From the NCBI RefSeq assembly GCF_035599575.1, contig NZ_CP141179.1, forward strand, positions 1,860,001 through 1,924,000: a DNA stretch of 64,000 bases. The letters run 5' to 3'. The stretch's first letter is position 1, and every line of letters begins with the position of its first letter. Origin of the DNA: Roseovarius sp. Pro17 (GTDB lineage: Bacteria; Pseudomonadota; Alphaproteobacteria; Rhodobacterales; Rhodobacteraceae). The notes under the pieces are model-generated. The model did no database searches. It was not told the origin of the DNA and was given only the letters and a program-made list of their open reading frames with translations. This document shows, piece by piece, positions 10,366 through 26,362 of the stretch. A program made the position numbers and the translations under genes.

Positions 10366-10534
10366 GGGATGTCCTCTCAAAGCGGTGGCGTGGCGGGCTG
10401 GCCGCACTATGCACGAAAGGATCGGCGCGCCGCTGTCATCCTGTCAAGCAGCAAGACCATTCGGAAGACGCAAGTTGCGCGGCTTCTGGCTATTCTCGGC
10501 CAAGTTATCCAAGTCCGCACTCTCGGCCCTGCGC

Positions 10535-11689
10535 TCAGCCTTTTAAACGCGTGCGGCAAATCTCGGCAAAACGCTCGGCGGCGGGCGACAGCCTGCGCCC
10601 GGTGCGATGCGCCAGTACGATTCCGCTGGCCTTTGGTGCCCCTGCCAAGGGTCGTGTAACCAACGCCTTGCCGTCATAGCTCATCGGCGATGCGGGCTTG
10701 GTCGCGAGTAGCGCATAGCCCATGCCGTGACCGACCATCGCGCGCACCATTTCCAGCGACGATGTGCGGTGCGCAACCTTGGGGATCACCCCGGCATCGG
10801 TCATCAGCCCGGTAAAATAATCGCGGCTGGGATCGACGTCGAGCAGGATCAGCGGCTCATCCGCCAGATCCTCGGGCGACACTTCGCGCTGCTCGGCCAG
10901 GGCGTGCCCTTCGGGTAGCAGCACGTAAGGCTCGAGCGACGTCAACAGCTCGGTCGTCAGTCCCTCGCCCAGCGCCATGTCATAAAGCAGCGCGACCTCG
11001 CTCTCGCCCGAGGCGAGGCTTTCGCGGATGCGGCGGTGGTCGCCCTCGATCAGTTTGACGTTTAGATCAGCCGCGTCATTCAACAACTGGGGGATCATGA
11101 ACGGTCCGAAGGTCTGGAAACAACCGACCGTTACCTTGGCTGTGCTGGTCTCGGCGGCCAGTTTCAGCGTGCTGGTCCCCTCTATCTGGCTGGAGGCGCC
11201 ATAGGCGCGATTGGCGTAAATCAGTGGCGATCCCGCGCGCGTGGCATGGATATCCTGCACTTCGCCGATGAAAATATGGTGCGTTCCAATCTGCTGCGAC
11301 GATTGCAGCTTGCAATCAAAGGCGACCAGCGCGTCGGCCATGCGTGGGGCGCCACCGGCGCAATCTTCCCATGTGGTGCAATCAAACTTGTCTTGGATCT
11401 CGTCCTTGAACCGGCCCGCGAACGTGTCCGAGACATAGGATTGATCGTCGCGCAGCACGTTAACGCAGAACGTGCCGTTCGCCGCGATCTTTTCTGCCGC
11501 AAGGCTCTTGTGATGAACGCAGACCAGCAGCGTCGGCCCTTCGCCGTCGGCCGATACCGACGACATCGCCGAGACCGTGACCCCTGCCCGCCCGGCCTTG
11601 CCGCCGGTGGTGATCACATTCACCGTGCAGGCTGCATAGCTCATGCCGGTGACAAAGCGTGTCCTCAGGTCTGGTGCCAGGTCGTTCAT
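10535..11689 (-). CDS. Flavin reductase fused to a LysR-type ligand-binding domain
   Basis: A 384-residue chimera. Residues about 1-165 form an HpaC-like flavin reductase split barrel (FVTGMSYAACTVNVITTGG, AGVTVSAMSSVSADGEGPTLLVCV, NGTFCVNVL). After a short linker, residues about 184-384 form a LysR substrate-binding domain (KVTVGCFQTFGP, YVLLPEGHALAE, DLADEPLILLDVDPSRDYF, GMGYALLATKP) with no helix-turn-helix. The ligand domain closely matches that of the neighbouring LysR gene at 11859-12788. The reductase probably supplies reduced flavin to the HpaB-type monooxygenase at 16315-17835, and I infer that ligand binding gates this activity. The ATG at 11689 follows AAGGGGG by seven bases. Confidence 0.9.
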   Translation of the reverse strand: MNDLAPDLRTRFVTGMSYAACTVNVITTGGKAGRAGVTVSAMSSVSADGEGPTLLVCVHHKSLAAEKIAANGTFCVNVLRDDQSYVSDTFAGRFKDEIQDKFDCTTWEDCAGGAPRMADALVAFDCKLQSSQQIGTHHIFIGEVQDIHATRAGSPLIYANRAYGASSQIEGTSTLKLAAETSTAKVTVGCFQTFGPFMIPQLLNDAADLNVKLIEGDHRRIRESLASGESEVALLYDMALGEGLTTELLTSLEPYVLLPEGHALAEQREVSPEDLADEPLILLDVDPSRDYFTGLMTDAGVIPKVAHRTSSLEMVRAMVGHGMGYALLATKPASPMSYDGKALVTRPLAGAPKASGIVLAHRTGRRLSPAAERFAEICRTRLKG

Positions 11690-11811
11690 CGGCTCGCCCC
11701 CTTTCCGGGTTGGTCGCAAAAAATCCTTGCGCCCAATGTGGACTGCGCGAGGCCGCGCGCAAAGACGGATTTCGATTGGCTGGCCTTCAGGATTTTAAAA
11801 GCAACCGCCGC

Positions 11812-11858
11812 AAGCGTCTCGCGAAAATCTGTGGATTCAGGTTTTTCGCGAAACGCTT
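11812..11858. repeat. Half copy (single hairpin) of the dispersed palindromic repeat
   Basis: A single hairpin with 14-base arms (GCGTCTCGCGAAAA and TTTTCGCGAAACGC, one mismatch) around a CTGTGGATTCAGG-type centre. It matches one hairpin of the full elements at 58326-58440 and 62255-62370. It abuts the stop codon of the LysR gene. Confidence 0.75.
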
Positions 11859-12788
11859 TCAGCGGCACATGCCGGGGATCGCGCCGGTGCGCACGGTGCC
11901 TTCGCAATGCTGGCGAAAGGCGTCCAGCAGCCGCGTCGCCTGCATGTCGCGTAGCATGGCGAGGCCAACGACCATCGAGGCGGCATCGTCGCCGATCCGC
12001 TCTAGCGGCACATATGCCAGCGGGCGGTCCGTTTCGGCGCGCATGTTCAAGGGCTTGGACGTCATCAGCGAATACCCGATCCCCGCCGCAACGAACGAAC
12101 GCAGCATCGACGGATCGCCGCATTCGGCGACGATGCGGGGCTTCAGACCCAATTGCTCAAAAAGCGAGATGAAATATTGCCGACTGATCGGCAGGTCCAG
12201 CAGCACGAAAGGCTCCTCGGCCAGATCCATCAGACTGAGTGACGCGCGCCCGGCCAGCGGATGATCGGCGGCCAGCAGCACATAGGTCGGCATCTGTGCC
12301 AGCGGATGAAACACCATTTCGGGGCTGAGGTGACTTTCGTAGGTCAGCGCCACGTCGATCTGCGCACGCCGCAACCCCTCCATCAGCTCGGCCTCGCTGC
12401 CTGCCGTGACCTTCAGCGATACATCCGGATAAAGAGCGGTGAAAGAACGCCAGATTTCCGGCAGGATTAACGGCGCAAACGTGTGAAACGTGCCGACATG
12501 CAGCGGGCCGGACACCAGTCCCGCCGTCTCGCCCGCGACCTCATAGAGGCGATGCGCCGAGCGTAGCGATTCCTTGGCCGCCTTTAGCATGCGTTTGCCC
12601 GCAGGGGTCAGCACCAGCCCTTGGGCATGCTGGCGGATGAACAGCTGCACGCCCAGCTCCTCCTCCAGATGCGAAATTGCGGAAGAGACTGAAGGTTGCG
12701 AGATGTTGATGGCCTCGGCGGCGCGTGTCACGCTGCCGGTTTCGCCCGCCGCAATGAAATAGCTGATCTGGCGGAGGGTAAAGCGCAT
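11859..12788 (-). CDS. LysR-family transcriptional regulator of the catabolic cluster
   Basis: A 309-residue LysR protein beginning MRFTLRQISYFIAAGETGSV. The helix-turn-helix covers roughly residues 3-62 (AINISQPSVSSAISHLEEELGVQLF), and the ligand domain starts near residue 92. I chose the ATG at 12788; the frame extends to 12836, but that end lacks a ribosome site and does not look like a LysR N-terminus. The ligand domain is clearly related to the C-terminal half of the next gene (10535-11689), sharing segments such as YVLL, SR-YF and GY-L--KP. The two proteins may therefore sense the same inducer, one acting on transcription and one on enzyme activity. Confidence 0.92.
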   Translation of the reverse strand: MRFTLRQISYFIAAGETGSVTRAAEAINISQPSVSSAISHLEEELGVQLFIRQHAQGLVLTPAGKRMLKAAKESLRSAHRLYEVAGETAGLVSGPLHVGTFHTFAPLILPEIWRSFTALYPDVSLKVTAGSEAELMEGLRRAQIDVALTYESHLSPEMVFHPLAQMPTYVLLAADHPLAGRASLSLMDLAEEPFVLLDLPISRQYFISLFEQLGLKPRIVAECGDPSMLRSFVAAGIGYSLMTSKPLNMRAETDRPLAYVPLERIGDDAASMVVGLAMLRDMQATRLLDAFRQHCEGTVRTGAIPGMCR

Positions 12789-12875
12789 GGCGGTGCGGTC
12801 CTTTGCTGGGGCCCCGGCCAGGGCCGGAACGCTCATAGTGCCGCAAAGGCGCGCTGAGGATCAATGGCCCTTGCG

Positions 12876-14033
12876 CTATAGCCCCGCTTCTAGCCGCTCT
12901 AGAACGTGGGCCAGCATCGCATCGCACGCATCCAACTGGCTGGCGTCGATGAACTCATCCGGCTTGTGGCCCTGTGCCATATGGCCCGGCCCGCAAACCG
13001 CCGTGGCGATGCCAAGGCGATTGTGAAACAGGCCTCCTTCGGTGCCGAAAGCGACCTTGATAGTGGGATCATTTGTGCCGGTCACATCGCGCAGGAACGC
13101 GACGATCGCGTCGTCCTGCGGGGTTTCGAGGCCGGGGTAAGCGTTCGTTTGTTCGATGTCGATGGCCACTTGCGGGTGGCTGTTGGCATAAGGCGCGGCG
13201 ATGCGCGCGGCATCCTCGGTCAGGCCCTCGACGATAACCGCGGGATCGTCGGCGGCGATATTGCGGATCTCGAAATCAAGCGTGCAGTGGTCCGGCACGA
13301 TATTCAGCGCGCGTCCGCCCTGCATGAGTCCTGCGTGAAACGTGGTGTAGGGCACGGAATATGCATCATCCCGCGCGCCATGAGCGGCGATATCGTCCTG
13401 ACGCGCGCGCAAGCGGGCGAGGAAATCCGCCCCCAGATGCAGCGCATTGACGCCCTCGGGTGCAAGGGCCGAATGGCTGGCATGACCGGTGCAGGTGGCG
13501 CGCAGGGCCGTCTTGCCTTTGTGGCCGGTGGCGATTTGCAATCCCGTAGGCTCGCCCACGATACAGAGTGCCGGTTTCACCGTCCGCCCTTCCAGCGCGT
13601 CGATCAGGCGGCGTACGCCGACACAACCGATTTCCTCATCATAGGAAAACGCCAGATGCAGCGGGGTTTTGAGGTTTCGCTGGCTGGCCAGCCGCGCTGC
13701 GCAAATGGCGCTGGCGACAAAGCCCTTCATATCCGCCGTGCCGCGCCCGTAGTATCGCCCCTCGCTTTCGCGCAAGCGGAACGGATCGCTGGACCACTCC
13801 TGCCCTTCGACCGGCACCACGTCCGTATGACCCGACAACATCACACCGGGGCGGTCCTGCGGGCCGATAGTGGCAAAAAGGTTGGCGCGGGTGCCATCCT
13901 CATTTTCCACCAGCTCGCAAGTGATGCCCACGTCGGCCAAAAGCTGCGCGATATAGGAGATCAGATCGCGGTTGGACGTCCGGCTGATGCTGGGAAATGC
14001 GATCAGCCGGTCCAGAATATCGAGCGTTTGCAT
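12876..14033 (-). CDS. argE: M20-family deacylase (acetylornithine deacetylase type)
   Basis: A 385-residue zinc-dependent amidohydrolase. The first metal His lies in LSGHTDVVPVEG and the bridging Asp in YGRGTADMKGF. The catalytic Glu and a metal Glu lie in SYDEEIGCVG, and the final His in VCGPGHMAQGHKPDEF. The length fits ArgE. ArgE removes the acetyl group from N2-acetylornithine, but alphaproteobacterial relatives hydrolyse many N-acyl amino acids. It ends 87 bases before the LysR gene and begins 4 bases after the DUF1028 stop, so it belongs to the catabolic operon rather than to arginine synthesis. Confidence 0.85.
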   Translation of the reverse strand: MQTLDILDRLIAFPSISRTSNRDLISYIAQLLADVGITCELVENEDGTRANLFATIGPQDRPGVMLSGHTDVVPVEGQEWSSDPFRLRESEGRYYGRGTADMKGFVASAICAARLASQRNLKTPLHLAFSYDEEIGCVGVRRLIDALEGRTVKPALCIVGEPTGLQIATGHKGKTALRATCTGHASHSALAPEGVNALHLGADFLARLRARQDDIAAHGARDDAYSVPYTTFHAGLMQGGRALNIVPDHCTLDFEIRNIAADDPAVIVEGLTEDAARIAAPYANSHPQVAIDIEQTNAYPGLETPQDDAIVAFLRDVTGTNDPTIKVAFGTEGGLFHNRLGIATAVCGPGHMAQGHKPDEFIDASQLDACDAMLAHVLERLEAGL

Positions 14034-14037
14034 GGGC

Positions 14038-14715
14038 CTAGAGGTCGCCCGGAACGCCGTAGCTGGGCGCCTCGGTCGGGTTCAGGGCGCGGCTGACATA
14101 GGCGTCCATCTCGCCCTTCCAGCGCTCCCACAGATCACCGAGCGCTTGGATCGGGCAATCGTCGCGCCAGTCGACGCGCAGGTCGGCGACGGGCCAGGCG
14201 ACATCCTTGGCCAGCAGCATTCCTGCGGAATGCACGTCGCCCTCTTCGCCGCCCGCGTCCAGCGCGGCCTTCATCGCAGCGATCAGGCGGTCGCCGAGGG
14301 GTTGGCCCTTGCCGGCGTCAAACGCCTTGACCATCGCCTCAGGCACGGCCTTGGACGTCAGAAGGTTGCCCGCTGCGACCACGCCATCGCCAGTGACGAC
14401 ATGGTGCGTGCCCAGCGTGTTGGCACCCGAAAAATGCGCTGTGCCACCCTTGGTATCCACCAACGCAAGCTGGCGATACTCCAGATGCGGTGCGTCCTTT
14501 TTCAGCGCTTCCAGCGCGTCAGAGGCGGACATCCCCTGCCCCATCAGGTCCAGCCCCTTGGGGCCAAGGCGGGGATCAGTAATGTTCTGCGTGGACACAG
14601 CGCCCGCGCCCGCGCGCACATGCGCGCAACGCGCAGCGACGCATGGCGAGGAAGAGGACACAGCAACGCCGAACATACCGGAATCAGGGCAGCGGGCGGA
14701 AATGGAAAAGGTCAT
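14038..14715 (-). CDS. DUF1028 (Ntn-hydrolase-like) protein
   Basis: A 225-residue protein matching DUF1028 in length and opening (MTFSISARCPDSGMFGVAVSSSSP). It also carries GAVSTQNITDPRLGPKGLDLM, and GNLLTSKAVPEAM in the second half. The family is thought to have an Ntn-hydrolase-type fold, but its reaction is not known to me. It lies between RidA (15 bases) and the M20 deacylase (4 bases) in a tight operon. In such settings it probably hydrolyses an amide or related intermediate. This is inference from context. Confidence 0.85.
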   Translation of the reverse strand: MTFSISARCPDSGMFGVAVSSSSPCVAARCAHVRAGAGAVSTQNITDPRLGPKGLDLMGQGMSASDALEALKKDAPHLEYRQLALVDTKGGTAHFSGANTLGTHHVVTGDGVVAAGNLLTSKAVPEAMVKAFDAGKGQPLGDRLIAAMKAALDAGGEEGDVHSAGMLLAKDVAWPVADLRVDWRDDCPIQALGDLWERWKGEMDAYVSRALNPTEAPSYGVPGDL

Positions 14716-14729: not shown

Positions 14730-15143
14730 TCAGTCAGGGATGACGGCGGTCGCTTCGATCTCGACCACCCATTCGGGGCGGGCGAGCGCCGGCACGACGA
14801 TACCGGTTGAGCAGGGATGAACGCCCTTCAGGAACCTGCCCATCTCCTGATAGACGGCCTCACGGTAGCGGATATCGGTCACATAGACCACGATCCGGCA
14901 CAGATGCGCCATCTCGCTGCCCGCTTCCTTCAGCAGCATTTCAATGTTCTCCATCGTCTTGCGAGTCTGCCCCGCAGGATCGCCGACGGCAACGCATTCG
15001 CGCGTGTCCAGATCCTGAGCAACCTGACCACGCAGAAAAACCATCGTGCCGCGCGCGACGACGCCTTGAGACAGGTCATTGTCCAGCTTCTGCTCGGGGT
15101 AGGTTTCCTTGGTGTTGAACGGGCGAAGGCGTTTGTGGATCAT
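14730..15143 (-). CDS. RidA/YjgF-family protein
   Basis: A 137-residue RidA-fold protein with VARGTMVFLRGQVAQDLDT near the N-terminus, the helix QTRKTMENIEMLLKEAG, and HPCSTGIVVPALARPEWVVEIEATAV at the C-terminus. RidA proteins speed hydrolysis of reactive enamines and imines. Its position next to oxygenases suggests that an imine or enamine forms in this pathway. Its ATG overlaps the stop of the Rieske gene by 4 bases, giving translational coupling. Confidence 0.9.
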   Translation of the reverse strand: MIHKRLRPFNTKETYPEQKLDNDLSQGVVARGTMVFLRGQVAQDLDTRECVAVGDPAGQTRKTMENIEMLLKEAGSEMAHLCRIVVYVTDIRYREAVYQEMGRFLKGVHPCSTGIVVPALARPEWVVEIEATAVIPD

Positions 15144-16294
15144 GTATTCAGTCCTTGGTTGCTGGCAGCAGGCGCGATGCGACCGCTGAGGTATTGGGCA
15201 AAATCGTAATTGGGCCGCTCAAGGTGCGACAGATGCCCCGGCGCAGCCATGCGCGACAGAAGACCCTGATAGACCTTTTCGGTGCAGCCACGATCCTCAA
15301 GATTGACGTCATCAAGGATGGTTTTCAGCGTTTCATTGTATTCGATCGCCTTGGGATCGCCCATGAAATGCGGATCAAAACCGCCGCCGAATATCATCCG
15401 CACGCGGCCCACACCATCGGGTTGCAGACACAGATACCAGAAATAGCCCGGCGTCAGCGTGACCATGTGGCTGGGGTAGATTGAGATCAGCGCCGAGGTC
15501 TTGCGCATGACGCCCGTAAGGCGGGTGTTGTCGGGATGCGCGTTGCCAATTGCCAGCTCCGCCTCTTTGGTGAACCAGTGAATGTTGAAATGCGGATGGC
15601 CTGGAGGGCAATCGACATTCGCCAGATCAGTAAACGGGCCGACGGTGCCCTTGTGGCAGACCGGTAAATGGTAGCTTTCCATGTAGTTTTCGGCCAATAC
15701 CTTCCAGTTCGTGTCCCAGACATGGACCTCATTGAAGGTTTCGACGTAGTTTTCCATGCCATAATCGCCGATCATATCAGCCAATGGCGCAAGCTGTTGC
15801 GCGACGGGCGGTGTATCCGGATCAAGCGTGACATAAACCCAGCCCAGCCATTCCTCACAGCGAATATCGCCCAGCTTGTAGTCGGCCTTGCAGAAGGCAT
15901 CGTTCCTGTCCATCTCGGGCGCGCCACGCAGAGAGCCGTCGAGATTGTAGGTCCAAGCGTGGTAAGGACACACGATCGAGCGCGTGTTGCCGCGCCCCTC
16001 CAGCAGGGTCGACATGCGGTGCAGGCAGACGTTGGACATGGCGCGCAACTCACCGTCGCGGCCGCGAATGACCGCGATGGGCTGACCTGCCAATTCAACC
16101 GTCACATAGTCGCCCGGCTCCTGCATCGCGCTGGCGCGTCCGACGCAGAACCATTCCTTGCCAAAAAGAAATTCCTGCTCCTGCGCCAAAAACTCTTCGG
16201 ACGTATAGACCGAGGGCGGCATGGCACGCGCCGCCTCGAAAGGCAGCGCTGCTGTTTTCATCAACTCGTCAATAGCGCGTGGTTGCTGTCCCAT
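15140..16294 (-). CDS. Rieske non-haem iron oxygenase, alpha subunit (first copy)
   Basis: A 384-residue ring-hydroxylating/demethylating oxygenase. The Rieske cluster motif CLH...CPYHAW (about residues 90-115) binds the 2Fe-2S centre. The catalytic domain carries the mononuclear iron ligands in NWKVLAENYMESYHLPVCH. The single-component size resembles carnitine, choline or stachydrine monooxygenases more than two-subunit aromatic dioxygenases. No reductase or ferredoxin gene is nearby. It follows the HpaB-type gene by 20 bases and is coupled to RidA. Confidence 0.92.
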   Translation of the reverse strand: MGQQPRAIDELMKTAALPFEAARAMPPSVYTSEEFLAQEQEFLFGKEWFCVGRASAMQEPGDYVTVELAGQPIAVIRGRDGELRAMSNVCLHRMSTLLEGRGNTRSIVCPYHAWTYNLDGSLRGAPEMDRNDAFCKADYKLGDIRCEEWLGWVYVTLDPDTPPVAQQLAPLADMIGDYGMENYVETFNEVHVWDTNWKVLAENYMESYHLPVCHKGTVGPFTDLANVDCPPGHPHFNIHWFTKEAELAIGNAHPDNTRLTGVMRKTSALISIYPSHMVTLTPGYFWYLCLQPDGVGRVRMIFGGGFDPHFMGDPKAIEYNETLKTILDDVNLEDRGCTEKVYQGLLSRMAAPGHLSHLERPNYDFAQYLSGRIAPAASNQGLNT

Positions 16295-16314: not shown

Positions 16315-17835
16315 TTATTCCGCCGCTTTCAGCATAGTCTCGCTGTAGTGTTGCGCAACGGCGGGGTCGCCGTTCTTGCTCTCAATTCCGGACATGACGT
16401 TGTCCGACAGATGTGCACCTTTTTTGACAAAGTTCAGCGGGCCATCCCAATCGAAATTGCGATAAACGGCGGCACTCTGCGCGAAGGGCGGCGATTGCGC
16501 GAAAAGTTGGAAGGTCAGGCGGTGGCCCGCATAGTCCGAGTTCAGCAGATCGCGCGCATAGGCCAACAGCTTGCGACGATCCTCGGCAACCCAGTTTTCG
16601 TTGATGGAGTAATACTTATCCATCCACGGCTTGGTCTCGGGCGCATCAAAGGTTGCGGCATTGGGCGTCACACAGATCTGACCGCCGCACAGCTCGCGGG
16701 CGATATGCATCATCGGGCTGAGATTGTTCAGCGCGTGGCAGCGCCCCGACATCAGCAGCGACTGGTTCGGCATCATCAGACCCGCGGGCGAGCGTTCGCC
16801 GAGCGCAATGGAGGCTGTCAGATGCGCGTTGATCCCCTCGCGCCAGATCGCCAGATCGGCCAGCTTTTCCTGAACGGCGGGCTGCTTGTCCAAACCGGTC
16901 TGGCGCACATTGAACAGCGCCGAGCCGATCATCTGGTCAGCCTGCTTCAACGTGCGCTGAACAAAGGCGAAGGCCGAATAACGGTGCAACGTGTTGCGGA
17001 TGAACGCGGCCGCCTTAGTGTGGCGATAGAACAGCACATTTTCCCACGGGATCAGCACGTTGTCAAAGATGACGATGGTGTCGACCTCGTCAAAACGTGC
17101 CGCCAGCGGATAGTCGCGATCATCCGCGCGCGTGCTGGCAAAGCCGCCACGGCAGAGGAATTTCAAACCGGGCGAGCCCAGATCGCAGATGAATCCGACG
17201 GCGTAATCGCTCAGCTCGGCATTGCCCCAATTGGCGATGGTCGGCTTGGTAAATGCTTGGTTGGCATAGGCTGCCGCTGTCTCGTATTTCGCGCCGCGCA
17301 CGATCAGGCCTGCGTCGGTTTCCTTGACCACATGCAGCAGCATGTCGGGGTCTTGATCCTGCGGCGCGAGGCTGCGATCACCCTTAGGGTCGGTGTTGGC
17401 CGACACATGAAAGGGGTCTTCTTTCAGCACCTTGTGGATATGCGTTTCGATATTCTTGGAGAACTGCGGATCAACCTCGTTGAGCATGTCCTGCCCATCA
17501 TAGAGAGACCACATCTCGCCCACCGTCTCATCGCCGACGCGGGTCACGACGCCGCCGATATCCTCCATCACGGCATCGGTCGAGCGGCGCTTGGCCCACC
17601 AGTCTTCTTGCGTGTAGGGCAGCGCATTGCCGATGGCGTTCTTCTCAGAACCGTCGTGATCGACCATGACATCGGCGGTCGCGGGATCATGGGCCATGTC
17701 GTAGATACGTGCGCGGATATCGACCAGCGGCTTGAACATCGGGTGTGTGGTGACGTCCTTGACCCGCTCGCCGTTCATATAGACCTCGCGGTTATCGCGG
17801 ATCGAGTCCTTGTATTCCTTGCCGGTTCTGATCAT
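16315..17835 (-). CDS. HpaB-type FADH2-dependent monooxygenase
   Basis: A 506-residue member of the 4-hydroxyphenylacetate 3-hydroxylase large-component family. It starts MIRTGKEYKDSIRDNREVYMNGERVKDV, carries AVGFICDLGSPGLKFLCRGGF mid-protein and NNLSPMMHIARELCGGQICVTPN toward the end, all typical. These enzymes take reduced FAD from a separate reductase and hydroxylate phenols or, in some cases, pyrrole-type rings. The likely reductase partner is the chimera at 10535-11689. The ATG at 17835 has a GAGGA site, and the 150-base gap upstream holds repeats suggestive of extra control. Confidence 0.9.
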   Translation of the reverse strand: MIRTGKEYKDSIRDNREVYMNGERVKDVTTHPMFKPLVDIRARIYDMAHDPATADVMVDHDGSEKNAIGNALPYTQEDWWAKRRSTDAVMEDIGGVVTRVGDETVGEMWSLYDGQDMLNEVDPQFSKNIETHIHKVLKEDPFHVSANTDPKGDRSLAPQDQDPDMLLHVVKETDAGLIVRGAKYETAAAYANQAFTKPTIANWGNAELSDYAVGFICDLGSPGLKFLCRGGFASTRADDRDYPLAARFDEVDTIVIFDNVLIPWENVLFYRHTKAAAFIRNTLHRYSAFAFVQRTLKQADQMIGSALFNVRQTGLDKQPAVQEKLADLAIWREGINAHLTASIALGERSPAGLMMPNQSLLMSGRCHALNNLSPMMHIARELCGGQICVTPNAATFDAPETKPWMDKYYSINENWVAEDRRKLLAYARDLLNSDYAGHRLTFQLFAQSPPFAQSAAVYRNFDWDGPLNFVKKGAHLSDNVMSGIESKNGDPAVAQHYSETMLKAAE

Positions 17836-17985: not shown

Positions 17986-19137
17986 TTAAGCCGCTCCTTG
18001 CCCGTCGCCGCCCAGCGCCTCAAGCACCTGCATGTGGAGCCAGTGCAGCTGATATTCGGTGAACCAGCTATCCTCCTTGTCGCAGATATAGCGGCCCTGA
18101 TCATAGCCCATGGACGCGAGGCCGCGCTGGACGCTCTCGACAATCGCGATGTCTTCAATGTTGAACATATGCATGAAAAGATCACGCACCGCGCCCAGAT
18201 TGGGGTTATTTTCTTCGCCCTTGGGCGTGTAGATGTCCACCCGTTCGGAACATCCGCCGACGCCATCAGGCGCCATGCGCAGCACGATCAGGTTGTTCGA
18301 TCCCGGCAGGCTGAGCGCGCAAAAATGCGGCCACGCCTGCCACGCGTAGTAGGGCGAACCGGGCGTCAACTCAAAGCCGGGAAACCCCTCTTTGCTTTTG
18401 AAGCGGTTGAAGGTCCAGCGACGCTCTGCCTTTAGCTCTTCCATCTCCTGTTCCAGAACTTTGGACAGTTGCGGGTGGCAGATCGGGATGTGATACGCCT
18501 CGGAAAAGTTATCGACGACGGTTTTCCAGTTCGCCTTGATGTCATAATGCAGACGCTCGGCGACGACGAAATCCTTGGCCGTCGGCAGGAAATGCTCGAT
18601 ATTCTCGACAAAGCCGTCCATTTCCGTGGCGAAATCAGGCGCGTCAGGATCCAGCGTCGCAAAGATGAGCCCGGCGGCAAAGGCGATGCGGATTTCCTTT
18701 AGCCCGAACTGCGATTTGTCGAAATCCTTGACGTGTTCTGTCAGGCGCGCAACGCCAAGGCGGCCATCGAGGTGGAACATCCAAGCATGATAGGGACAGC
18801 TAATGCCCTTGGCCTTTAGCTTGCCGGCGCCCTCGACCAGTTGGTGGCCGCGATGCGGGCAGACGTTGTAGAAACAGCGCACCACGTCATCGCCGCCGCG
18901 CACCACGACAATGGGCTGCTCGCCCACGGTGTCGGTGAAATAATACCCCGTCTCCGGCACGTCGCCGACATGGCCGACATAGGTCCAGGCCTTGCGGTGT
19001 ATATGTGTCATCTCTTGGCGATAGATGCCCTCATCCGTGTAATAGCGCGACGGCAGCGTGGGCGAATTCAACGGATCAAGCGTGACTTTGCCACGCTCGC
19101 CGGTGGGCAGCATGGAGTCATTGATCTTAATGTTCAT
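17986..19137 (-). CDS. Rieske non-haem iron oxygenase, alpha subunit (second copy)
   Basis: A 383-residue Rieske oxygenase with cluster motif CPHRGH...CPYHAW (about residues 83-110) and mononuclear iron ligands in NWKTVVDNFSEAYHIPICH. The ATG at 19137 follows AGGGAA; the frame extends to 19176 but overlaps the upstream gene's end. It is homologous to the copy at 15140-16294 but clearly divergent, so the two probably catalyse different steps. The acidic C-terminal region and single-subunit type recall amine N-demethylases. It is flanked by the deacetylase-fold gene (19 bases) and the HpaB-type gene (150 bases). Confidence 0.92.
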   Translation of the reverse strand: MNIKINDSMLPTGERGKVTLDPLNSPTLPSRYYTDEGIYRQEMTHIHRKAWTYVGHVGDVPETGYYFTDTVGEQPIVVVRGGDDVVRCFYNVCPHRGHQLVEGAGKLKAKGISCPYHAWMFHLDGRLGVARLTEHVKDFDKSQFGLKEIRIAFAAGLIFATLDPDAPDFATEMDGFVENIEHFLPTAKDFVVAERLHYDIKANWKTVVDNFSEAYHIPICHPQLSKVLEQEMEELKAERRWTFNRFKSKEGFPGFELTPGSPYYAWQAWPHFCALSLPGSNNLIVLRMAPDGVGGCSERVDIYTPKGEENNPNLGAVRDLFMHMFNIEDIAIVESVQRGLASMGYDQGRYICDKEDSWFTEYQLHWLHMQVLEALGGDGQGAA

Positions 19138-19156: not shown

Positions 19157-20257
19157 TTATTTAATTTTATTAGCAAATTCGGCGGCAGTGTCGATCACCG
19201 CCTCTTGGTGTGGATAGAGCTGATGGCCCCCCATCCCCTCAAGGATCGGCGCGAACGGATCGTCGATACGGGTCTCGGCCTCGCACAGTTCTTCGATAAC
19301 GGCATGGGCGCAGAACGGGACATGCACGGCGGCATATCCGCCCTCGTGGGTAAAGAGCAGGCGACCGCCGCAAAGGTCCGCCGCCAGCGATTTCATCGTC
19401 GCCGCAATCTCGCGGTAGCTGCCCGAAGACAGCATCATGCGGCCGAGCGGATCAAAACCCCCGGCGTCAAATCCCGAGGGGACCACGATCAGATCGGGCT
19501 TGAACGCGGTGATGGCCGGCACAACAACACGCTCGAACGTGGCGCGATAGGCCTCGCGGCCACTGCCCGGCGGTAGCGGAACGTTGATGTTATAGCCCTC
19601 GCCCTTGCCGCGCCCAGTGTCGCCAGCCGCACCTGAATCAGGAGGAAAGCAGTTGTCCTGATGGATCGAAATTGTCAGCACATTAGGGTCGTCGTAAAAC
19701 GCATGTTCGGCGCTGTTGCCGTGATGCACATCGTAATCCAGCACGGCAACACGTCCGATACCGCGCGTCGCCTGCACGTGCTTGATGGCCAGAACGCCGT
19801 TGGCCAGCAGGCAAAATCCCTTGCCCACATCTGCCTCGGCGTGATGGCCGGGCGGGCGCACCAGCGCATAGGCATTGTCGACCTTGCCGTCTACCACCGC
19901 CTCGGCGGCGGCAATCACGCCGCCCGCAGACAGCAGCGCGATGTCATAGCCACCACCGGCAAAGGGCGTGGTCATGCCCGCATCCCCACCCCGCTCGGCG
20001 CTGAGCTGCGCCAGCCGGTCGATGTAGTCAGGCGTATGATAACGCAGCACCTCGTCGCGCGTGGCTGGGCGCGGCGCAATAAGGATCAGCTTCTCCAGCA
20101 GCCCGGTCACCTCCATGAGGTTACGGATTCGCCGCTTGCTCTCGGGGCTTTCGGCGTGCTCGGCAGGTTGCACATACCCTATCGAGGGGATGAAAATTCC
20201 CGCGTGGCCGGTATCGTGCCACATGTATTTCTCGTGACAAACAAAGCCCGTCTTCAT
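19157..20257 (-). CDS. Histone-deacetylase-fold amidohydrolase (acetylpolyamine deacetylase type)
   Basis: A 366-residue zinc amidohydrolase of the arginase/deacetylase fold. All key motifs are present: RPPGHHA (active-site His pair), DYDVHHGN (zinc Asp and His), SGFDAG (zinc Asp) and EGGYA (catalytic Tyr). In bacteria such proteins deacetylate acetylpolyamines or other acylated amines. It lies directly after the binding protein of a polyamine-type importer (54 bases) and before a Rieske gene, so it probably removes an acyl group from the imported amine or an intermediate. Confidence 0.9.
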   Translation of the reverse strand: MKTGFVCHEKYMWHDTGHAGIFIPSIGYVQPAEHAESPESKRRIRNLMEVTGLLEKLILIAPRPATRDEVLRYHTPDYIDRLAQLSAERGGDAGMTTPFAGGGYDIALLSAGGVIAAAEAVVDGKVDNAYALVRPPGHHAEADVGKGFCLLANGVLAIKHVQATRGIGRVAVLDYDVHHGNSAEHAFYDDPNVLTISIHQDNCFPPDSGAAGDTGRGKGEGYNINVPLPPGSGREAYRATFERVVVPAITAFKPDLIVVPSGFDAGGFDPLGRMMLSSGSYREIAATMKSLAADLCGGRLLFTHEGGYAAVHVPFCAHAVIEELCEAETRIDDPFAPILEGMGGHQLYPHQEAVIDTAAEFANKIK

Positions 20258-20311: not shown

Positions 20312-21352
20312 TTAACGCAGGACGTTGGTCCAGACGCGGTCGATCAGCTTTTGCGACTTTTCGTTACACGCAAAGGAAAAGATCATCTTGGCATCCTCAG
20401 GGACGTTGATCTCAGGCGCATCGCGCAGCTCAGGCGTCATGAATTCGCGCTGGCCTTCGATCGGCCCGCCATAGCCCGCGAAATTGGACTGCATCCCCAT
20501 GTTTTCGGGGTCCATGATGAAGTTCATGAAGATCTTGGCATTCTCGACATTCTCAGCCGAAACGGGGATCATAAGGCTGTCGGACCAACCGACCACACCC
20601 TCCTTGGGATAGGCGTAAACGATCTCCTTGCCCGCCTCTTCGGCCAGCTTGCGGCCCTTGAACGAATAGCCGTTCCAATGCGACGTGATGATCGTGTCGC
20701 CGTTGATCAGCCGGTCGTTCATCCCCTCCGAACTATAGGCAACGACGCTGGGCTTCTGCGCGACCAGCAGATCCTGCACCTTTTGCATTTCCTCGGGGTT
20801 CTCGTTGCAGAAATCCTGACCCAGATAGAGATGCGCGAGGTTCACGATCTCTTCGGGCGTCTTGAACACGCCGATGCGACCCTGCACCTCTTCGGCAGGC
20901 TCGAAATACTCACCATAGCTGGTCAGTTCCTTGCCATAGAGGTCGGGGCGGTAAGATACCGAGGCCGATCCCCAGTGGAATGGCACGGTATATTGCTGGT
21001 CGGGGTCCCATTCGGGATTCTTCCAGCGATCCTGCACATTGGCGAAGTTTTCCATCTGGGTCGCGTCGACCTTCTGCACCAGCCCTTCGGAGATGAAGAT
21101 CGGCACAAAGTTGTGGCTGGGTACGATGATGTCGTAGCCCGTCGCGCCTGCTTGCATTTTGGCCAGCAGCGTCTCGTTGGAATCGTAGGTGTCGAGGACG
21201 ACGTCGATGCCGGTCTCGGCCTCGAACTTCTCGATCATCTCGGGCGAGGTGTAGTCGGTCCAGTTGTAGAGGTTCAGCGTGCCTTCGGCCATCGCGGCCC
21301 CCGCGATCAGGCTGGTCCCGGCCATCAGGCCGAACATTTTGGTAAGTTTCAT
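20312..21352 (-). CDS. Polyamine/betaine-type ABC transporter substrate-binding protein
   Basis: A 346-residue periplasmic protein of the PotD/PotF family. A signal peptide (MKLTKMFGLMAGTSLIAGAAMA) is followed by GTLNLYNWTDYTSPEMIEKFEAETG, the typical start of the mature protein. YDIIVPSHNFVPIFISEGLVQK and ITSHWNGYSFKGRKL are further family segments. It would capture a cationic amine. It is the last of four importer genes, 24 bases after the second permease. Polyamine selectivity needs particular acidic residues that I cannot confirm, so a betaine or related ligand is equally possible. Confidence 0.92.
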   Translation of the reverse strand: MKLTKMFGLMAGTSLIAGAAMAEGTLNLYNWTDYTSPEMIEKFEAETGIDVVLDTYDSNETLLAKMQAGATGYDIIVPSHNFVPIFISEGLVQKVDATQMENFANVQDRWKNPEWDPDQQYTVPFHWGSASVSYRPDLYGKELTSYGEYFEPAEEVQGRIGVFKTPEEIVNLAHLYLGQDFCNENPEEMQKVQDLLVAQKPSVVAYSSEGMNDRLINGDTIITSHWNGYSFKGRKLAEEAGKEIVYAYPKEGVVGWSDSLMIPVSAENVENAKIFMNFIMDPENMGMQSNFAGYGGPIEGQREFMTPELRDAPEINVPEDAKMIFSFACNEKSQKLIDRVWTNVLR

Positions 21353-21376
21353 TTGGTCTTCTCCCTGTTGAGTTTC

Positions 21377-22222
21377 TTAATGGTTTTTGCCGTCGGGCTT
21401 GGTGCGCGTGGTGAACCAATAGGCGGTCACCAGCACGATCGAAAAAAGCAGCAGGATCGACGAGACCGCGTTGATCTCGGGCGTGATGCCCTGCCGGATC
21501 ATGGAATAGATATAGACGGGCAGCGTCGTGTCGCCGGCGCCAGCCACCATCAGCGTGATGATGAAATCGTCCATCGAGATGACAAAGCTCAGCATCGCGC
21601 CGGCCAGAACACCGGGCATGAGCTGGGGTAGCGTGACCAGTCGAAACGTCTCCCAATCCGAGGCGTAAAGGTCACGCGAGGCTTGCTCTAACGTGGTGTC
21701 CATCCCGTCGAGGCGCGCGCGGATCGGCATGAAGGCGAACGGGATGCAGAACGTCACATGGGCCAAGATCACGTTTCCAAGGCCAAGACTGAGGCCGAGG
21801 TTCGAGAAAAACACCAGCATCGCCACGGCGGTCACGATTTCCGGCACCATCAGCGGCAGGGTGATGATACCGACAGTCGCGCCCTTGCCCCTAAATGAAC
21901 CGCCCCGCGCCAGTGCCAGCGCGGCCAATGTGGCGCAGGTCGTGGCAATCGCCGTCGCGCTGGTCGCCACGACCAGCGAGTTGAGCGCGGCCTTGCGGAT
22001 ATCGGCGTTGGCGAACGCCTTGGCATACCAGTCGGTCGAAAACCCGGTCCAGACCATCACGATATTGCCCGCGTTGAACGAATAGATCACCAGCACGATG
22101 ATCGGCAGATAGAGGAACACCATGAAGGCGATGGCCACCGCGCCGAGGCCCGGCACCTCACCAAAGGCGCGGCGCTTCTTCGCTTTGGTCGCGACGGGTG
22201 TGATCTGATCCGAGACGGCCAT
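21377..22222 (-). CDS. ABC transporter permease (PotC/PotI type)
   Basis: A 281-residue inner-membrane protein with about six helices (first at AIAFMVFLYLPIIVLVIYSFN) and the EAA loop EQASRDLYASDWETFRLVTLPQLMPG. The ATG at 22222 shares one base with the stop of the preceding permease and has a GGAG site eight bases upstream. The longer frame to 22504 merely overlaps that permease. It pairs with the PotB/H-type permease to form the channel. Confidence 0.92.
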   Translation of the reverse strand: MAVSDQITPVATKAKKRRAFGEVPGLGAVAIAFMVFLYLPIIVLVIYSFNAGNIVMVWTGFSTDWYAKAFANADIRKAALNSLVVATSATAIATTCATLAALALARGGSFRGKGATVGIITLPLMVPEIVTAVAMLVFFSNLGLSLGLGNVILAHVTFCIPFAFMPIRARLDGMDTTLEQASRDLYASDWETFRLVTLPQLMPGVLAGAMLSFVISMDDFIITLMVAGAGDTTLPVYIYSMIRQGITPEINAVSSILLLFSIVLVTAYWFTTRTKPDGKNH

Positions 22223-23130
22223 CAGTGCAGCTCCATCTTTTGCTGACCACGCGCGGCGCGGGCATAGATCATCAGGAACGCGACCACTGCCGCCAGCAGG
22301 ATCATTGCGATCGCGGCACCGAACGGCCAGTTGCGCGCCGTCGAGAATTGGAACTGCACCAGCGTGCCCAGCATCATATTCTTGCCCCCACCTAAAAGGT
22401 CGGGCTGGATAAACGCGCCAAGGCTGGGGATAAAGACCAGCAAACAGCCCGCAATGATGCCCGGCTTGGAGAGCGGGATAATGACCTTGGTGAACGCCTC
22501 CCATTTGGAGGAATAGAGATCGGCTGCCGCTTCGACCAAGGTAAAGTCCAGCTTTTCAAGGCTCGCATAGATCGGCAGGACCATCAGCGGGATGAACGTG
22601 TAGGTCAGCCCCACTGCGATGGCGAAATTACTGTACATCAGGCCCAGCGTGTCATCACTGCCAAGGATGCCCAACCAGTGAAACGGCGTCTCGATAATGC
22701 CGTTGCGGCCCAGAATGATGATCCACGCGAACGTGCGCACCAGCTGGTTCGTCCAGAACGGGATGGTGATCAGCAGTATCCACATATTGCGATGCTGAAG
22801 CGGCTGGCGCGAGATGAAATATGCCACCGGAAAACCAACGACGAGGCAGCAGAGCATTGCAATTCCGGCCAACAGGAATGACCGCGCTATGATGATTAGA
22901 TAGCCGGGGCTAAGGATCAGGCTGTCATCCAGCGCCCGCTCATAGAGCAGCTGCACATAGGCGTCGGTCGAAAAGCTCCAGACAACGCCACCGAATGACT
23001 TGGCCTCAAGGAATGAGAATACCGCGATGATGCCGACAGGGATCAGCATGAAAATTCCGATGATGCCCAGCGCGGGCGTCAACGACAATGTGCGTCTGAG
23101 GGCGGGGCTGCTGGGCAGGTTCGCCATCAT
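22222..23130 (-). CDS. ABC transporter permease (PotB/PotH type)
   Basis: A 302-residue membrane protein with six predicted helices and the EAA loop VEAAADLYSSKWEAFTKVIIPLSKPG. Two adjacent ATG codons open the gene (23130 and 23127); the upstream ATPase stop overlaps them, so translation is coupled. It forms the importer channel with the next gene. Confidence 0.92.
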   Translation of the reverse strand: MMANLPSSPALRRTLSLTPALGIIGIFMLIPVGIIAVFSFLEAKSFGGVVWSFSTDAYVQLLYERALDDSLILSPGYLIIIARSFLLAGIAMLCCLVVGFPVAYFISRQPLQHRNMWILLITIPFWTNQLVRTFAWIIILGRNGIIETPFHWLGILGSDDTLGLMYSNFAIAVGLTYTFIPLMVLPIYASLEKLDFTLVEAAADLYSSKWEAFTKVIIPLSKPGIIAGCLLVFIPSLGAFIQPDLLGGGKNMMLGTLVQFQFSTARNWPFGAAIAMILLAAVVAFLMIYARAARGQQKMELH

Positions 23131-24269
23131 TCCACCAGAATCTGCAGGGCGGTGGGGCTGAGGATCACGCCCACCTTATCGCCGACGCGGCGCAGGCCTT
23201 GGTCGACCTCGCCAAGTGGCTCGGTGACGATCAGCGGTTCGGCCTCGCCTATGTCGATCTGCATCATGGTCGAGTTTCCGAGATATTGGATGTCCGTGAT
23301 TTCTCCATCAATCGTCCCTGCCCCGGCCTTGGCCAGTTTCACCTTTTCGGGGCGCAGAAACAGCGTCACGTCGCGCTGATCGGGCAGCAGGTTCTTGGCG
23401 TCGGCCTGCAACTCGGCCCCGCCCTTGGTGCGGCAGGTGACCGTCGCGCCGATGGGCGACGCGATGCTCGCCTCAATGAAATTCGCGTCCCCGACAAAGC
23501 CCGCGACAAAGCGGTTGGCGGGATGCTCATAAATCTCATTTGGTGTGCCGACCTGCTGTACAAGGCCCGCCGACATGACGGCGACGCGGTCGGACATCGA
23601 CAGCGCCTCGTCCTGATCGTGGGTGACAAAGATAAAGGTGATGCCGGTACGCGCCTGAATTTGCTTCAATTCCTGACGCATCGACTGGCGCAGCTTGAGG
23701 TCCAGCGCCGACAGCGGTTCGTCCAGCAGCAGCACCTTGGGGTGCGGCGCCAGCGCGCGAGCGAGTGCAACGCGTTGTTGCTGACCGCCCGATAGCTGCG
23801 TGGGCAAGCGCGGGCCGAATTCCGACATCTTGACCAGTTCCAGCATGTCGGCAACCGTCGTCTTGATCTCGTCCTTGGACTTTTTCAGCCGCTTGAGGCC
23901 GTAGGCGACATTTTCCGCCACGGTCATGTGCGGGAACAGCGAGTAGTGCTGAAATACGGTGTTGATCGAGCGTTTGTAGGTCGGCACGTCAACAATATCC
24001 TCGCCAAAGAGGCGAATGGTGCCAGCCGTCACATGCTCGAACCCCGCCATCGCGCGCAACAGCGTGGTCTTGCCGCAGCCCGAGGGGCCAAGCAGTGTGA
24101 AGAATTCGTTATCGGCGATGTCAAAGCTGACGCCTTTCAGCGCCTTGACCGCCGTCGCGCCCGATCCGTATGTCTTTTCGACGTTCTCCAATTCGACCGC
24201 CGCACGAGCAGAGCTGGCAGCGCCCGGAGTGGCGTCATGAATTGGCGCGGCAGCCACGGCGTTACTCAT
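23127..24269 (-). CDS. ABC transporter ATP-binding protein (PotA/PotG type)
   Basis: A 380-residue ATPase with Walker A GPSGCGKTT, signature LSGGQQQRVALARAL, Walker B VLLLDEPLSALD and switch His FVTHDQDEAL. A C-terminal TOBE-like regulatory region follows from about residue 290 (LFLRPEKVKLAKAG). The N-terminus has about 25 extra residues (AAAPIHDATPGAASSARAA) before the conserved VELENVEKTYG. Its ATG overlaps the flavoprotein stop by 4 bases, so importer and flavoprotein are translated together, which ties the flavoprotein to the imported amine. Confidence 0.94.
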   Translation of the reverse strand: MSNAVAAAPIHDATPGAASSARAAVELENVEKTYGSGATAVKALKGVSFDIADNEFFTLLGPSGCGKTTLLRAMAGFEHVTAGTIRLFGEDIVDVPTYKRSINTVFQHYSLFPHMTVAENVAYGLKRLKKSKDEIKTTVADMLELVKMSEFGPRLPTQLSGGQQQRVALARALAPHPKVLLLDEPLSALDLKLRQSMRQELKQIQARTGITFIFVTHDQDEALSMSDRVAVMSAGLVQQVGTPNEIYEHPANRFVAGFVGDANFIEASIASPIGATVTCRTKGGAELQADAKNLLPDQRDVTLFLRPEKVKLAKAGAGTIDGEITDIQYLGNSTMMQIDIGEAEPLIVTEPLGEVDQGLRRVGDKVGVILSPTALQILVE

Positions 24270-26362
24270 CGAAACGTCTCCTTTGGGGCCAGTTCGGTCA
24301 CTTCGCGGCGAAAGGACAGTTCATCCTCGCCGCGCACCACGTCCAATTCGCGGGCAAAGCGGTGACCGGCATAGGTGGCCCATGCGATGGGCGCGGGCGC
24401 GTTGGCATCTCCAATGCGCTCGATCTTTTTGATGCCTGCACCCTTCCACTCATCCTCGCGCGCTTTCAGCGCCTGCCACAGATCGTCATTGGGCAGACGG
24501 CAGGTGACAAGGACCGTCGCATCGCAGTCAATCGTGCGCGTACGCCCGGTAAACGCACAGGCCAGCGTTACGCCCTTGGCCTCGACCGACGTTACGGCCT
24601 GCGCAGTGATGATGTTCACGCCCAGTTCGATCATGCGGGCTTGAATGCGGTGCTGCTCCAGCGTGTTCAGCGTCCACTCGCTGACGAGGTTCGCGGGCGT
24701 GACCAGCGTCACCTCCAGCCCCTTTTGCACCAAGAGTTCGGCCAGAACGCCGCCCATGTAATAGTGATCGTCGTCATATAGCACGACATGCCCGCCCTCG
24801 GGCAGTTTCCCCGCCATCAGATCGTCGGGGGTAAAGATCGCCATCGCGTCGTCGATGGAAATGGGCAGCAGGTTATGGCGCGCCACCCCGTCGCGCCGCC
24901 AGGTTGACCCGGTGGCAATCGCGACGTTCTCAAATCCGAAATCCAGCACGTCCTGCGCGCTAAGCCGCGAGTCGAAGTAGACCTCGACGTTCGGCATGGT
25001 GCTGATCTGGTGCTGGCGATAGTCGCACACACGCCCCCACGTCGCCAACCCCGGCAACTGACATTCCAGCGCGACGCGCCCGCCCAGTTCGGTTCCCGCC
25101 TCGGCCAGTGCCACCTGATAGCCGCGTTCACCAGCGGCGCGCGCCGCCTCAAGGCCAGCTGGACCGGCGCCGATAATCAGCACGTTTTCAGTCTCGCCCT
25201 TGGCGTCGATCTCTTCGGGGTGCCAGCCCTTGCGCCACTCTTCCATAAAGGTGGGGTTTTGCGTGCAGCGACTGATCGACATCGTCATATCGCCGGTCAC
25301 GCAGATATTGCAGCCGATGCACTCGCGAATATCCTCGACGCGGCCCTCATCGATCTTGCGCGGGATGAACGGATCGGCAATCGAGGGGCGCGCCGCGCCG
25401 ATGAAATCCAGCACACCGCGCTTGATCTGGCTGACCATCGCATCGGGCGAGGTAAAGCGGCCGACGCCGACCACAGGCTTGTCCGTCAGCTCCTTGATGC
25501 CGCGCACCAGCGGTTCCTGCGCGCCCTCTTCGGTAAAGCGGGACGGGCCGGAACAATCCTCCCATGTGCCGTGGCCCAGATCCCAGAGGTCCGGCAGATC
25601 GGCGTTCATTTCGATCATGTCGCGTACTTCCGGGTTTTCCAGCCCGCCGATTTCCTCCAGCGACAGGCGCACGGAAATAGCGATGGAATCGCCGACAGCA
25701 TCCTTGCACTCGCTGATAAGTTCACGGAACAAGCGCGCGCGATTTTCCAGGCTGCCACCATATTCGTCATCCCGCTGGTTCGTCAGCGGCGACAGGAAGT
25801 GCTGGATCACGCCAAACCCATGCGCACCATAAAGTTCAATGATATCATATCCGGCAGTTTTCGCCCGCAGGCAGGCATTGCGGTGCCAGCGGCGCAGATC
25901 GCGAATGTCCTGCTTGTCCATCGCGCGGGCGCTGACCGGGTCCTTGTAAAAGGTCAGGATCGGCGAATGCGACGGCGCCATCGGCACCTCTTTGGTATAG
26001 AGATTGCCGCCATTGACGCCGCTATAGGCCAGTTCGATCCCCGCCAGCGCGCCGTCCGTCTTCATCGCCTCGGCCATGCGCGCGAGGCCCGGAATATCCT
26101 TGTCCTCCCAGAGCCTTAGCTCAATAAACGGAGTGATTTCGGACGTCTGGTGCATCTCGACCTGCTCGGTAAAGATCACGCCCCAGCCACCTTGCGCCTT
26201 GATGTTGCGCATCTGCGCGGCCGCCGACGGGTCGCGATAGCCGCCACCGTTGCAATGAGGCACCTGATAGAACCGGTTCTTGGCCGTCACGGGGCCGATC
26301 TTGACTGGCTCAAACAGGATGTCATAGCGCGGATCGCGTTTGGAGGTGCTGTCCTTGGGCAT
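24266..26362 (-). CDS. Trimethylamine-dehydrogenase-family FMN/4Fe-4S/FAD oxidoreductase
   Basis: A 698-residue three-domain flavoprotein. An old-yellow-enzyme barrel (about 1-345) opens with KNRFYQVPHCNGGG as in trimethylamine dehydrogenase. The iron-sulphur ligands are Cys348, 351, 354 and 366 (CIGCNIC...C). A second region from about residue 392 has an FAD/ADP-binding IIGAGPAGLEAARAAG and GTELGGR. Relatives demethylate tri- or dimethylamine and N-methylproline, or oxidise histamine. Coupled to an amine importer and near two Rieske oxygenases, it most likely removes an N-methyl or amino group. The precise substrate is not evident. Confidence 0.9.
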   Translation of the reverse strand: MPKDSTSKRDPRYDILFEPVKIGPVTAKNRFYQVPHCNGGGYRDPSAAAQMRNIKAQGGWGVIFTEQVEMHQTSEITPFIELRLWEDKDIPGLARMAEAMKTDGALAGIELAYSGVNGGNLYTKEVPMAPSHSPILTFYKDPVSARAMDKQDIRDLRRWHRNACLRAKTAGYDIIELYGAHGFGVIQHFLSPLTNQRDDEYGGSLENRARLFRELISECKDAVGDSIAISVRLSLEEIGGLENPEVRDMIEMNADLPDLWDLGHGTWEDCSGPSRFTEEGAQEPLVRGIKELTDKPVVGVGRFTSPDAMVSQIKRGVLDFIGAARPSIADPFIPRKIDEGRVEDIRECIGCNICVTGDMTMSISRCTQNPTFMEEWRKGWHPEEIDAKGETENVLIIGAGPAGLEAARAAGERGYQVALAEAGTELGGRVALECQLPGLATWGRVCDYRQHQISTMPNVEVYFDSRLSAQDVLDFGFENVAIATGSTWRRDGVARHNLLPISIDDAMAIFTPDDLMAGKLPEGGHVVLYDDDHYYMGGVLAELLVQKGLEVTLVTPANLVSEWTLNTLEQHRIQARMIELGVNIITAQAVTSVEAKGVTLACAFTGRTRTIDCDATVLVTCRLPNDDLWQALKAREDEWKGAGIKKIERIGDANAPAPIAWATYAGHRFARELDVVRGEDELSFRREVTELAPKETFR

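Follow-up and report, generated by a model that had tools for sequence, protein, structure and literature searches.

The window, a 64,000-nucleotide stretch of DNA from Roseovarius sp. Pro17, carries a gene whose product joins a flavin reductase domain to a LysR-type ligand-binding domain (LBD) across an interdomain stretch of about 17 residues (Table 1). A longer frame with a TTG start is listed at the same locus (10535..11719); the ATG used here is preceded in the DNA sequence by a GGAAAGGGGG stretch, plausibly a ribosome-binding site. In Pfam scans the reductase half matches Flavin_Reduct at 117.8 bits (cut-off 27, profile positions 5-151 of 153) and the C-terminal half matches LysR_substrate at 127.5 bits (cut-off 28, profile positions 5-208 of 209). 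No HTH_1 match was obtained in the fusion; because the same scan recovers both HTH_1 (77.9 bits) and LysR_substrate in the neighbouring regulator LysR_B, the helix-turn-helix is truly absent. The protein is not a LysR regulator, and the sequence-only reading of a LysR substrate-binding domain lacking its DNA-binding part agrees with these scans. That reading's description of the N-terminal half as an HpaC-like reductase stands for the domain type but not at the level of an equivalog, as the score with the HpaC model TIGR02296 (NCBIfam) is 114.7 bits against a cut-off of 205.95. The RutF equivalog cut-off was likewise not reached (133.7 of 254.75 bits). Across 67 aligned fusions, T38, S40, G135 and H137 of the reductase half are invariant, as is N77 among others, and in the LBD so are P196, L275, V319, G324 and G340.

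Table 1 The fusion gene, its domains and the surrounding gene cluster in the window
Feature	Position	Strand	Basis and remarks
LysR-LBD-fused flavin reductase	10535..11689	(-)	384 aa, ATG at 11689
Flavin_Reduct domain	11195..11632	(-)	Residues 20-165 of the fusion, Pfam
LysR_substrate domain (LBD)	10544..11143	(-)	Residues 183-382 of the fusion, Pfam
Complete LysR regulator LysR_B (HTH + LBD)	11859..12836	(-)	Pfam; best solved match 6m5f/3fzv
ArgE-type M20 deacylase, candidate HinG	12876..14033	(-)	Domain scans; HinG mapping from gene order
DUF1028 protein, candidate HinH	14038..14715	(-)	Pfam; HinH mapping from gene order
RidA family protein, candidate HinL (enamine deaminase)	14730..15143	(-)	Pfam and hin comparison
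Rieske oxygenase (Rieske1)	15140..16294	(-)	Pfam; homologue in 25/80 fusion loci (best 80 of 189)
HpaB-type flavin monooxygenase; putative partner of the fusion and putative imidazole-4-acetate monooxygenase	16315..17835	(-)	Pfam
Second Rieske oxygenase	17986..19134	(-)	Domain scans
Histone-deacetylase-like amidohydrolase	19157..20257	(-)	Pfam
Four-gene ABC transporter encoding a binding protein, two permeases and an ATPase	20312..24269	(-)	Pfam
Histamine dehydrogenase homologue	24266..26362	(-)	Match to solved structures
Further cluster gene	26405..27883	(-)	Pfam/NCBIfam scans

The set of genes typical of histamine clusters is complete in the window, comprising histamine dehydrogenase, aldehyde dehydrogenase, RidA, DUF1028 and ArgE-type genes. 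Compared with solved proteins, the histamine dehydrogenase homologue scores 1084.8 and 876.4 bits with the histamine dehydrogenases 6de6 and 3k30 against 509.3 bits with trimethylamine dehydrogenase. It is adjoined by an aldehyde dehydrogenase and by the four-gene ABC transporter, which we read as polyamine type and as a candidate for amine uptake. The fusion and LysR_B have homologous LBDs, with 29% identity over a local alignment of 228 aa. The histone-deacetylase-like protein might deacetylate an N-acetylated amine; in Bacillus badius a gene of the same type (L141:13586-14704) lies next to an HpaB-RidA-DUF1028 cluster. Elsewhere in the window, a separate gene group with an ABC transporter includes a 576-aa protein (6973-8703) whose sole Pfam match is a B12-binding domain at the C terminus. 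Homarine catabolism was an early guess for the cluster that was set aside, the hin-like gene content giving the better fit.

In Pseudomonas, hinFLHG (PA5393 to PA5390) converts imidazole-4-acetate to aspartate according to PMC8231116. As given in PMC6467879, HinF is an FAD-monooxygenase (EC 1.14.13.5), HinL an enamine deaminase, HinH an amidase, HinG the amidase EC 3.5.1.8 and HinI an aspartate ammonia-lyase. The window cluster shares the RidA, DUF1028 and ArgE-type set with this operon and has the histamine and aldehyde dehydrogenases nearby, but in place of the FAD monooxygenase HinF it has an HpaB-type two-component enzyme. No HinF-type imidazole-4-acetate monooxygenase was found in the window cluster, and we infer that HpaB takes this step. 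The only HinF-like match of the window genome sits elsewhere (G000:C1:419846-421093), and neither RidA nor DUF1028 was recognised among its neighbours. Candidate equivalences of HinH with DUF1028, HinG with the ArgE type and HinF with an FAD oxidoreductase are mapped from gene order, as opposed to Pseudomonas sequences. The order in question is that of a Burkholderia plasmid (L130), on which RidA, DUF1028 and argE lie between an FAD oxidoreductase and a LysR regulator in the arrangement of hinG-H-L-F. The label HinF-like denotes gene context; the best NCBIfam model for the protein, TIGR04046, is sub-threshold at 365.4 of 498.35 bits.

The association of these genes recurs in other genomes. Aminobacter sp. 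MSH1 has the order flavin reductase (unfused), HpaB, RidA, DUF1028, LysR, argE (on the other strand) and aspartate ammonia-lyase, the last corresponding to the activity of HinI. Around the HinF-like genes of four other family members (L216-L219), histamine dehydrogenase, LysR and DUF1028 lie alongside in three (L216-L218) and LysR only in the fourth, and RidA was recognised in two of the four. Neighbour counts within 12 kb or 8 kb drew on 39 histamine dehydrogenase places of at least 57% identity (the remaining places, at 57% or less, were left out), 68 HinF-like places and 17 regulator-type places. Histamine dehydrogenase and a HinF-like gene occur within 12 kb of each other in 28 genomes, counted from the 39 dehydrogenase places. 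Either gene alone is weak evidence for the pathway because both are common in the family (51 and 67 of 198 genomes, respectively). On its gene content, the window cluster is probably of the histamine-degradation type.

The sequence-only reading had proposed a search for the same domain order, and this search yielded 80 near-full-length relatives. Named genomes were scanned with a ten-row alignment as query and the best 80 of 189 encoding stretches were kept; these are 48-90% identical to the window protein and, judged by record titles, belong to Alphaproteobacteria and Gammaproteobacteria. The full-length fusion is present in 10 of 198 genomes sampled from the same family, and full-length matches at E 1e-60 in four of 398 genomes across the phylum, the window's own being included in both counts. 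Among 1228 plasmid records with a match, six cover at least 80% of the fusion query; four of the six carry the annotation ‘LysR substrate-binding domain-containing protein’, one reads ‘hypothetical protein’ and one has none. The near-full-length relatives (best 80 of 189) and the ten family genomes rule out chance juxtaposition, a frame error or a sequencing artefact. No publication on such a fusion of reductase and LysR LBD was found in the open-licence literature.

Selection was estimated with our own Nei-Gojobori script on 14 hand-picked pairs of close relatives. The LBD is under purifying selection in all 14 pairs (dN/dS 0.018-0.374), which rules out a vestigial LBD, and the reductase domain gave 0.016-0.186 in 13 of the 14 pairs tested, one being not computable. 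Between the window protein and that of L038, the relative closest to it, dN/dS is 0.067 in the LBD and 0.072 in the reductase. The LysR-LBD-fused flavin reductase is a conserved and selected family.

Phylogenetic trees drew on 88 fused frames, represented by 54, 53 or 19 rows, with five long-branch rows dropped before the 53- and 19-row trees. In a careful LBD tree, a branch with 99/95 support separates 19 sampled fused LBDs from 45 regulators, so that a recent duplication of the neighbouring regulator is not supported as the source of the LBD. With 53 fused rows the fused set is again on one side of a branch, at a support of 9, and with 54 rows the fusion label needs two changes. A single origin of the fused LBDs is likely from these trees. 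In the reductase tree, built with 54 fused rows, three changes of the label are required, with the unfused reductases of L134 and L125 inside the fused group and an Aminobacter fusion (L135) outside, none of this with firm support. The latter, on an Aminobacter aminovorans plasmid (L135:9992-11170), is a divergent LysR-LBD-fused reductase (39%) in a different cluster of acyl-CoA dehydrogenase family, glutamine synthetase family and APC permease genes, and perhaps reflects another ligand or a second fusion event. Another divergent fusion, 45% identical to that of the window (L128:8893-10080, the same as L017), belongs to a genome (G137) whose HinF-like, histamine-type cluster is on a different contig.

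The best solved match of the fused LBD is a Pseudomonas aeruginosa LysR protein, 3fzv/6m5f (141.7 and 141.4 bits, next protein 106.3), with 38% identity over 204 aa. Its PDB title reads only ‘probable transcriptional regulator’. PMC2881104 gives Pseudomonas aeruginosa as the source of the 3fzv protein. We take this protein to be HinK: an apo HinK structure has been solved according to the review PMC8231116, and the L130 Burkholderia regulator beside the hin-like operon is 81% identical to 3fzv over 206 aa. In the careful tree 3fzv groups with L130 among the regulators, across the 99/95 branch from the 19 fused LBDs. As described in that review, HinK (PA0218) recognises imidazole-4-acetate, the ligand being placed between the lobes of the LBD, and controls hinFLHG; the affinity reported there is weak (1.56 mM), which could suit a catabolic substrate and is not taken as support for gating.

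Scored with a model of the fused LBDs, the 3fzv LBD reaches 206 bits and that of LysR_B in the window 146. The motifs PSxxYF, SxExVRGxVG, TxP and YDG are common to the fused LBDs and four HinK-like regulators, each position being kept in 77-100% of 53 fused sequences; the window fusion departs from the shared motif with an A at 317. If 3fzv is HinK, the two proteins share LBD kinship and a hin-type setting, with HinK controlling hinFLHG and the window holding hinLHG-like genes. HinK, however, is a gene regulator with its own DNA-binding domain, whereas the window LBD sits on an enzyme. From this kinship and the cluster, imidazole-4-acetate is the likely ligand of the fused LBD.

Matches to the LBD alone were found at 17 places in the 198 family genomes, seven of them within 8 kb of a HinF-like gene and four of these also of histamine dehydrogenase. 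One further such match (G036) adjoins HpaB. A regulator LBD scoring at least 180 with the fused-LBD model is present in 10 of 29 HpaB-centred stretches, the fusion in two and both in none, and among the fusion loci (best 80 of 189) such a regulator occurs once (L064). The score line of 180 was picked after the scores had been seen. At a line of 160 the counts are 15 of 29 HpaB stretches but also nine of the best 80 fusion loci, and the picture blurs, so the apparent tendency of the HinK-like LBD to sit on either the regulator or the reductase, and not on both, is only suggestive.

Gene neighbourhoods of the fusion were compared over the best 80 of 189 loci, using identity and coverage thresholds of our own choosing and approximated fusion starts for upstream distances. 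Homologues of window genes were recognised as follows: DUF1028 at 53 loci, RidA at 51, HpaB at 43, LysR_B at 39, ArgE at 35 and Rieske1 at 25; another clustering of the same loci gave 53, 47 and 42 for DUF1028, RidA and HpaB, with ArgE and Rieske1 unchanged at 35 and 25. Histamine dehydrogenase-type genes are present at 10 of the best 80 loci, aspartate ammonia-lyase at three and HutD at 13. All of these counts are lower bounds, since many contigs are short. HutD-like neighbours, for example L064:8816-9442 and also at the plasmid locus L133:11233-11781, might point to imidazole metabolism.

HpaB was the partner monooxygenase proposed from the sequence alone, and at the best 80 of 189 loci it is present in 43. 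The homologue count of 43 takes in L109 (a 27% match) and misses L115, and the dedicated count, also 43, includes L115, whose copy is only in pieces, and excludes L109. Within about 250 nt upstream, the first gene recognised is HpaB at 18 loci (best 80 of 189), Rieske1 at 17, HutD at one and a luciferase-like monooxygenase at one (L110), with none at 43. The pairing is therefore supported but is not general: six of the best 80 loci have a HinF-like gene and no HpaB, two of 19 fusion genomes have neither enzyme, and 27 of 29 HpaB stretches are without the fusion. At two loci, HpaB upstream of the fusion (L115) and Rieske1 (L126:10843-11984) are split over two frames beside intact fusions, and these splits appear to reflect decay or assembly error. 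The gene read as a luciferase-like monooxygenase (L110:8430-9785) is 32% identical to an L134 gene annotated ‘nitrilotriacetate monooxygenase’, and RidA, aspartate ammonia-lyase and a HinF-like gene are found at the same locus.

Among the 198 family genomes, HpaB orthologues (E 1e-120) are found in six, the fusion in ten and both in four. One of the four (G108) has an intact HpaB on another contig and HpaB pieces beside the fusion. Two genomes have HpaB but lack the fusion. In G036, HpaB lies with RidA, a Rieske gene and DUF1028, and the divergent regulator there gives the highest-scoring regulator-type match among the 198 family genomes. In G059, the gene after HpaB encodes a reductase that shares one frame with RidA. 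From the 37 fusion loci without HpaB, 19 genomes were searched for HpaB elsewhere; seven have it and 11 have a HinF-like gene, so that 17 of the 19 have one or the other, with both in G199 and neither in G214 and G215. The six of the best 80 loci at which a HinF-like gene occurs and HpaB does not, most of them close relatives, are joined by L127, and HpaB was not found in the six genomes at E 1e-60. This HinF-like clade keeps the fusion even though an enzyme of the EC class of HinF should not depend on a separate reductase.

HpaB and a HinF-like gene occur together at none of the best 80 fusion loci. At genome level the two nevertheless coexist in three of the six HpaB-bearing family genomes (the window's own, G026 and G108), so HpaB is not a simple replacement of HinF, and the two lie together in L140, L142 and L213, stretches without the fusion, which suggests that they may not do the same job. 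A class-wide survey of 29 HpaB-centred stretches, from 26 of 28 class-level genomes (the window's own and G232 were examined separately), found the fusion in two and not in the other 27. Unfused or RidA-fused reductases occupy the slot of the fusion in other HpaB clusters, and the fusion is dispensable. The HpaB-RidA-DUF1028 cluster of Rhizobium sp. ACO-34A (L134) has, like the window, a reductase of this kind between HpaB and RidA, its domain 58% identical to that of the fusion, but this reductase has no LBD and a separate LysR regulator lies downstream. A reductase in one open frame with RidA lies next to HpaB in L125:6775-7734 (the same as L019) and in the RidA frame of L136:4293-6818 (the same as L147). 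The two genomes with reductase-RidA fusions, G059 and G232, belong to different families, and RidA is thus a second fusion partner for the reductase.

The proposal of ligand gating takes its precedent from C1, the reductase of Acinetobacter baumannii p-hydroxyphenylacetate hydroxylase, which the earlier reading had cited for its MarR-like domain in terms that match PMC10816480. In that account the C-terminal MarR domain is self-inhibitory and substrate relieves the inhibition, binding of 4-hydroxyphenylacetate to the domain raising flavin reduction at least 30-fold; C1 serves there as one example of a substrate-gated flavin reductase, and the effect is called uncommon. Like the fusion, C1 (PDB 5zc2) combines an N-terminal flavin reductase with a C-terminal sensor domain of transcription-factor type, and its partner is a separate flavin monooxygenase. 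The reductase domains of the two are distantly alike (39.3 bits). The fusion differs from C1 in its sensor domain: no C-terminal MarR domain was found, its place being taken by LysR_substrate, and the NF045919 score is 61.9 of 340 bits. Gating is reported for C1, and for the fusion we infer it by analogy; if gating holds, the fusion would be a LysR-LBD variant of the C1-type substrate-gated reductase.

At about an even chance, we read the fusion as a substrate-gated NADH:flavin reductase serving the HpaB of the window, with imidazole-4-acetate as both ligand and substrate. The histamine and aldehyde dehydrogenases encoded in the cluster would turn histamine into imidazole-4-acetate, which HpaB probably oxygenates. 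The N-terminal domain would make reduced flavin for a two-component monooxygenase, most likely HpaB, and imidazole-4-acetate in the LBD cleft would, by analogy with C1, lift the inhibition of the reductase, so that reduced flavin would be made only when substrate is present.

It is unlikely, though to be weighed seriously, that the gated reductase serves a Rieske oxygenase or some monooxygenase other than HpaB, or that its LBD responds to a compound different from imidazole-4-acetate. Rieske1 rivals HpaB as the nearest recognised upstream gene (17 versus 18 of the best 80 loci), the fusion is kept in the six genomes with a HinF-like gene at the locus and HpaB not found, and Rieske1 is without an obvious electron donor there because a Pfam scan of the 16 genes in 9541-27883 gave no ferredoxin reductase domain. 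Against this, HpaC-type reductases supply diffusible flavin and do not serve Rieske proteins. The order HpaB-Rieske1-fusion in several loci (for example L051, L067, L070, L075, L084 and L106) also means that adjacency to Rieske1 may be secondary.

We think it rather improbable that the LBD leaves reductase activity unchanged and serves passively, for oligomerisation or for holding substrate. HpaB clusters with unfused reductases do exist, and the reductase-RidA fusion in two genomes means that the reductase is also fused to a partner that is not a sensor; the HinK-like motifs kept throughout the fused set argue the other way.

There is little likelihood that the protein is a trigger enzyme whose LBD pairs with that of the neighbouring LysR regulator and modulates transcription, with or without gating. 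LysR proteins oligomerise through their LBDs, and the LysR_B-type regulators at 39 of the best 80 fusion loci share LBD homology with the fusion. The 99/95 branch nonetheless sets the 45 regulators apart from the 19 sampled fused LBDs, and about half of the best 80 loci have no such regulator in the stretch. Equally slight is the chance of a wider role in which one metabolite would control the pathway at two levels, transcription and the delivery of electrons, the LBD having moved from regulator to enzyme; the enzyme may then also pair with the pathway's LysR regulator, because such domains oligomerise, and report flux. Redox sensing by an OxyR-like LBD that would stop the reductase when peroxide accumulates is highly improbable: OxyR LBDs are among the solved relatives and most fused sequences keep Cys190 (79%) and Cys378 (96%), but the same two cysteines are present in 3fzv, read as a metabolite-sensing type, and the redox cysteines of OxyR are placed elsewhere.

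The fusion family links a widespread and poorly annotated protein to probable histamine breakdown, and the cluster names imidazole-4-acetate as a concrete candidate ligand and leads us to propose an HpaB-type imidazole-acetate monooxygenase. If the preferred reading of a substrate-gated reductase is true, gating would avoid both waste of NADH and formation of peroxide. The fusion would then be a second gated reductase with an unrelated sensor domain, and the placing of a regulator's ligand domain onto a flavin reductase would have evolved more than once.
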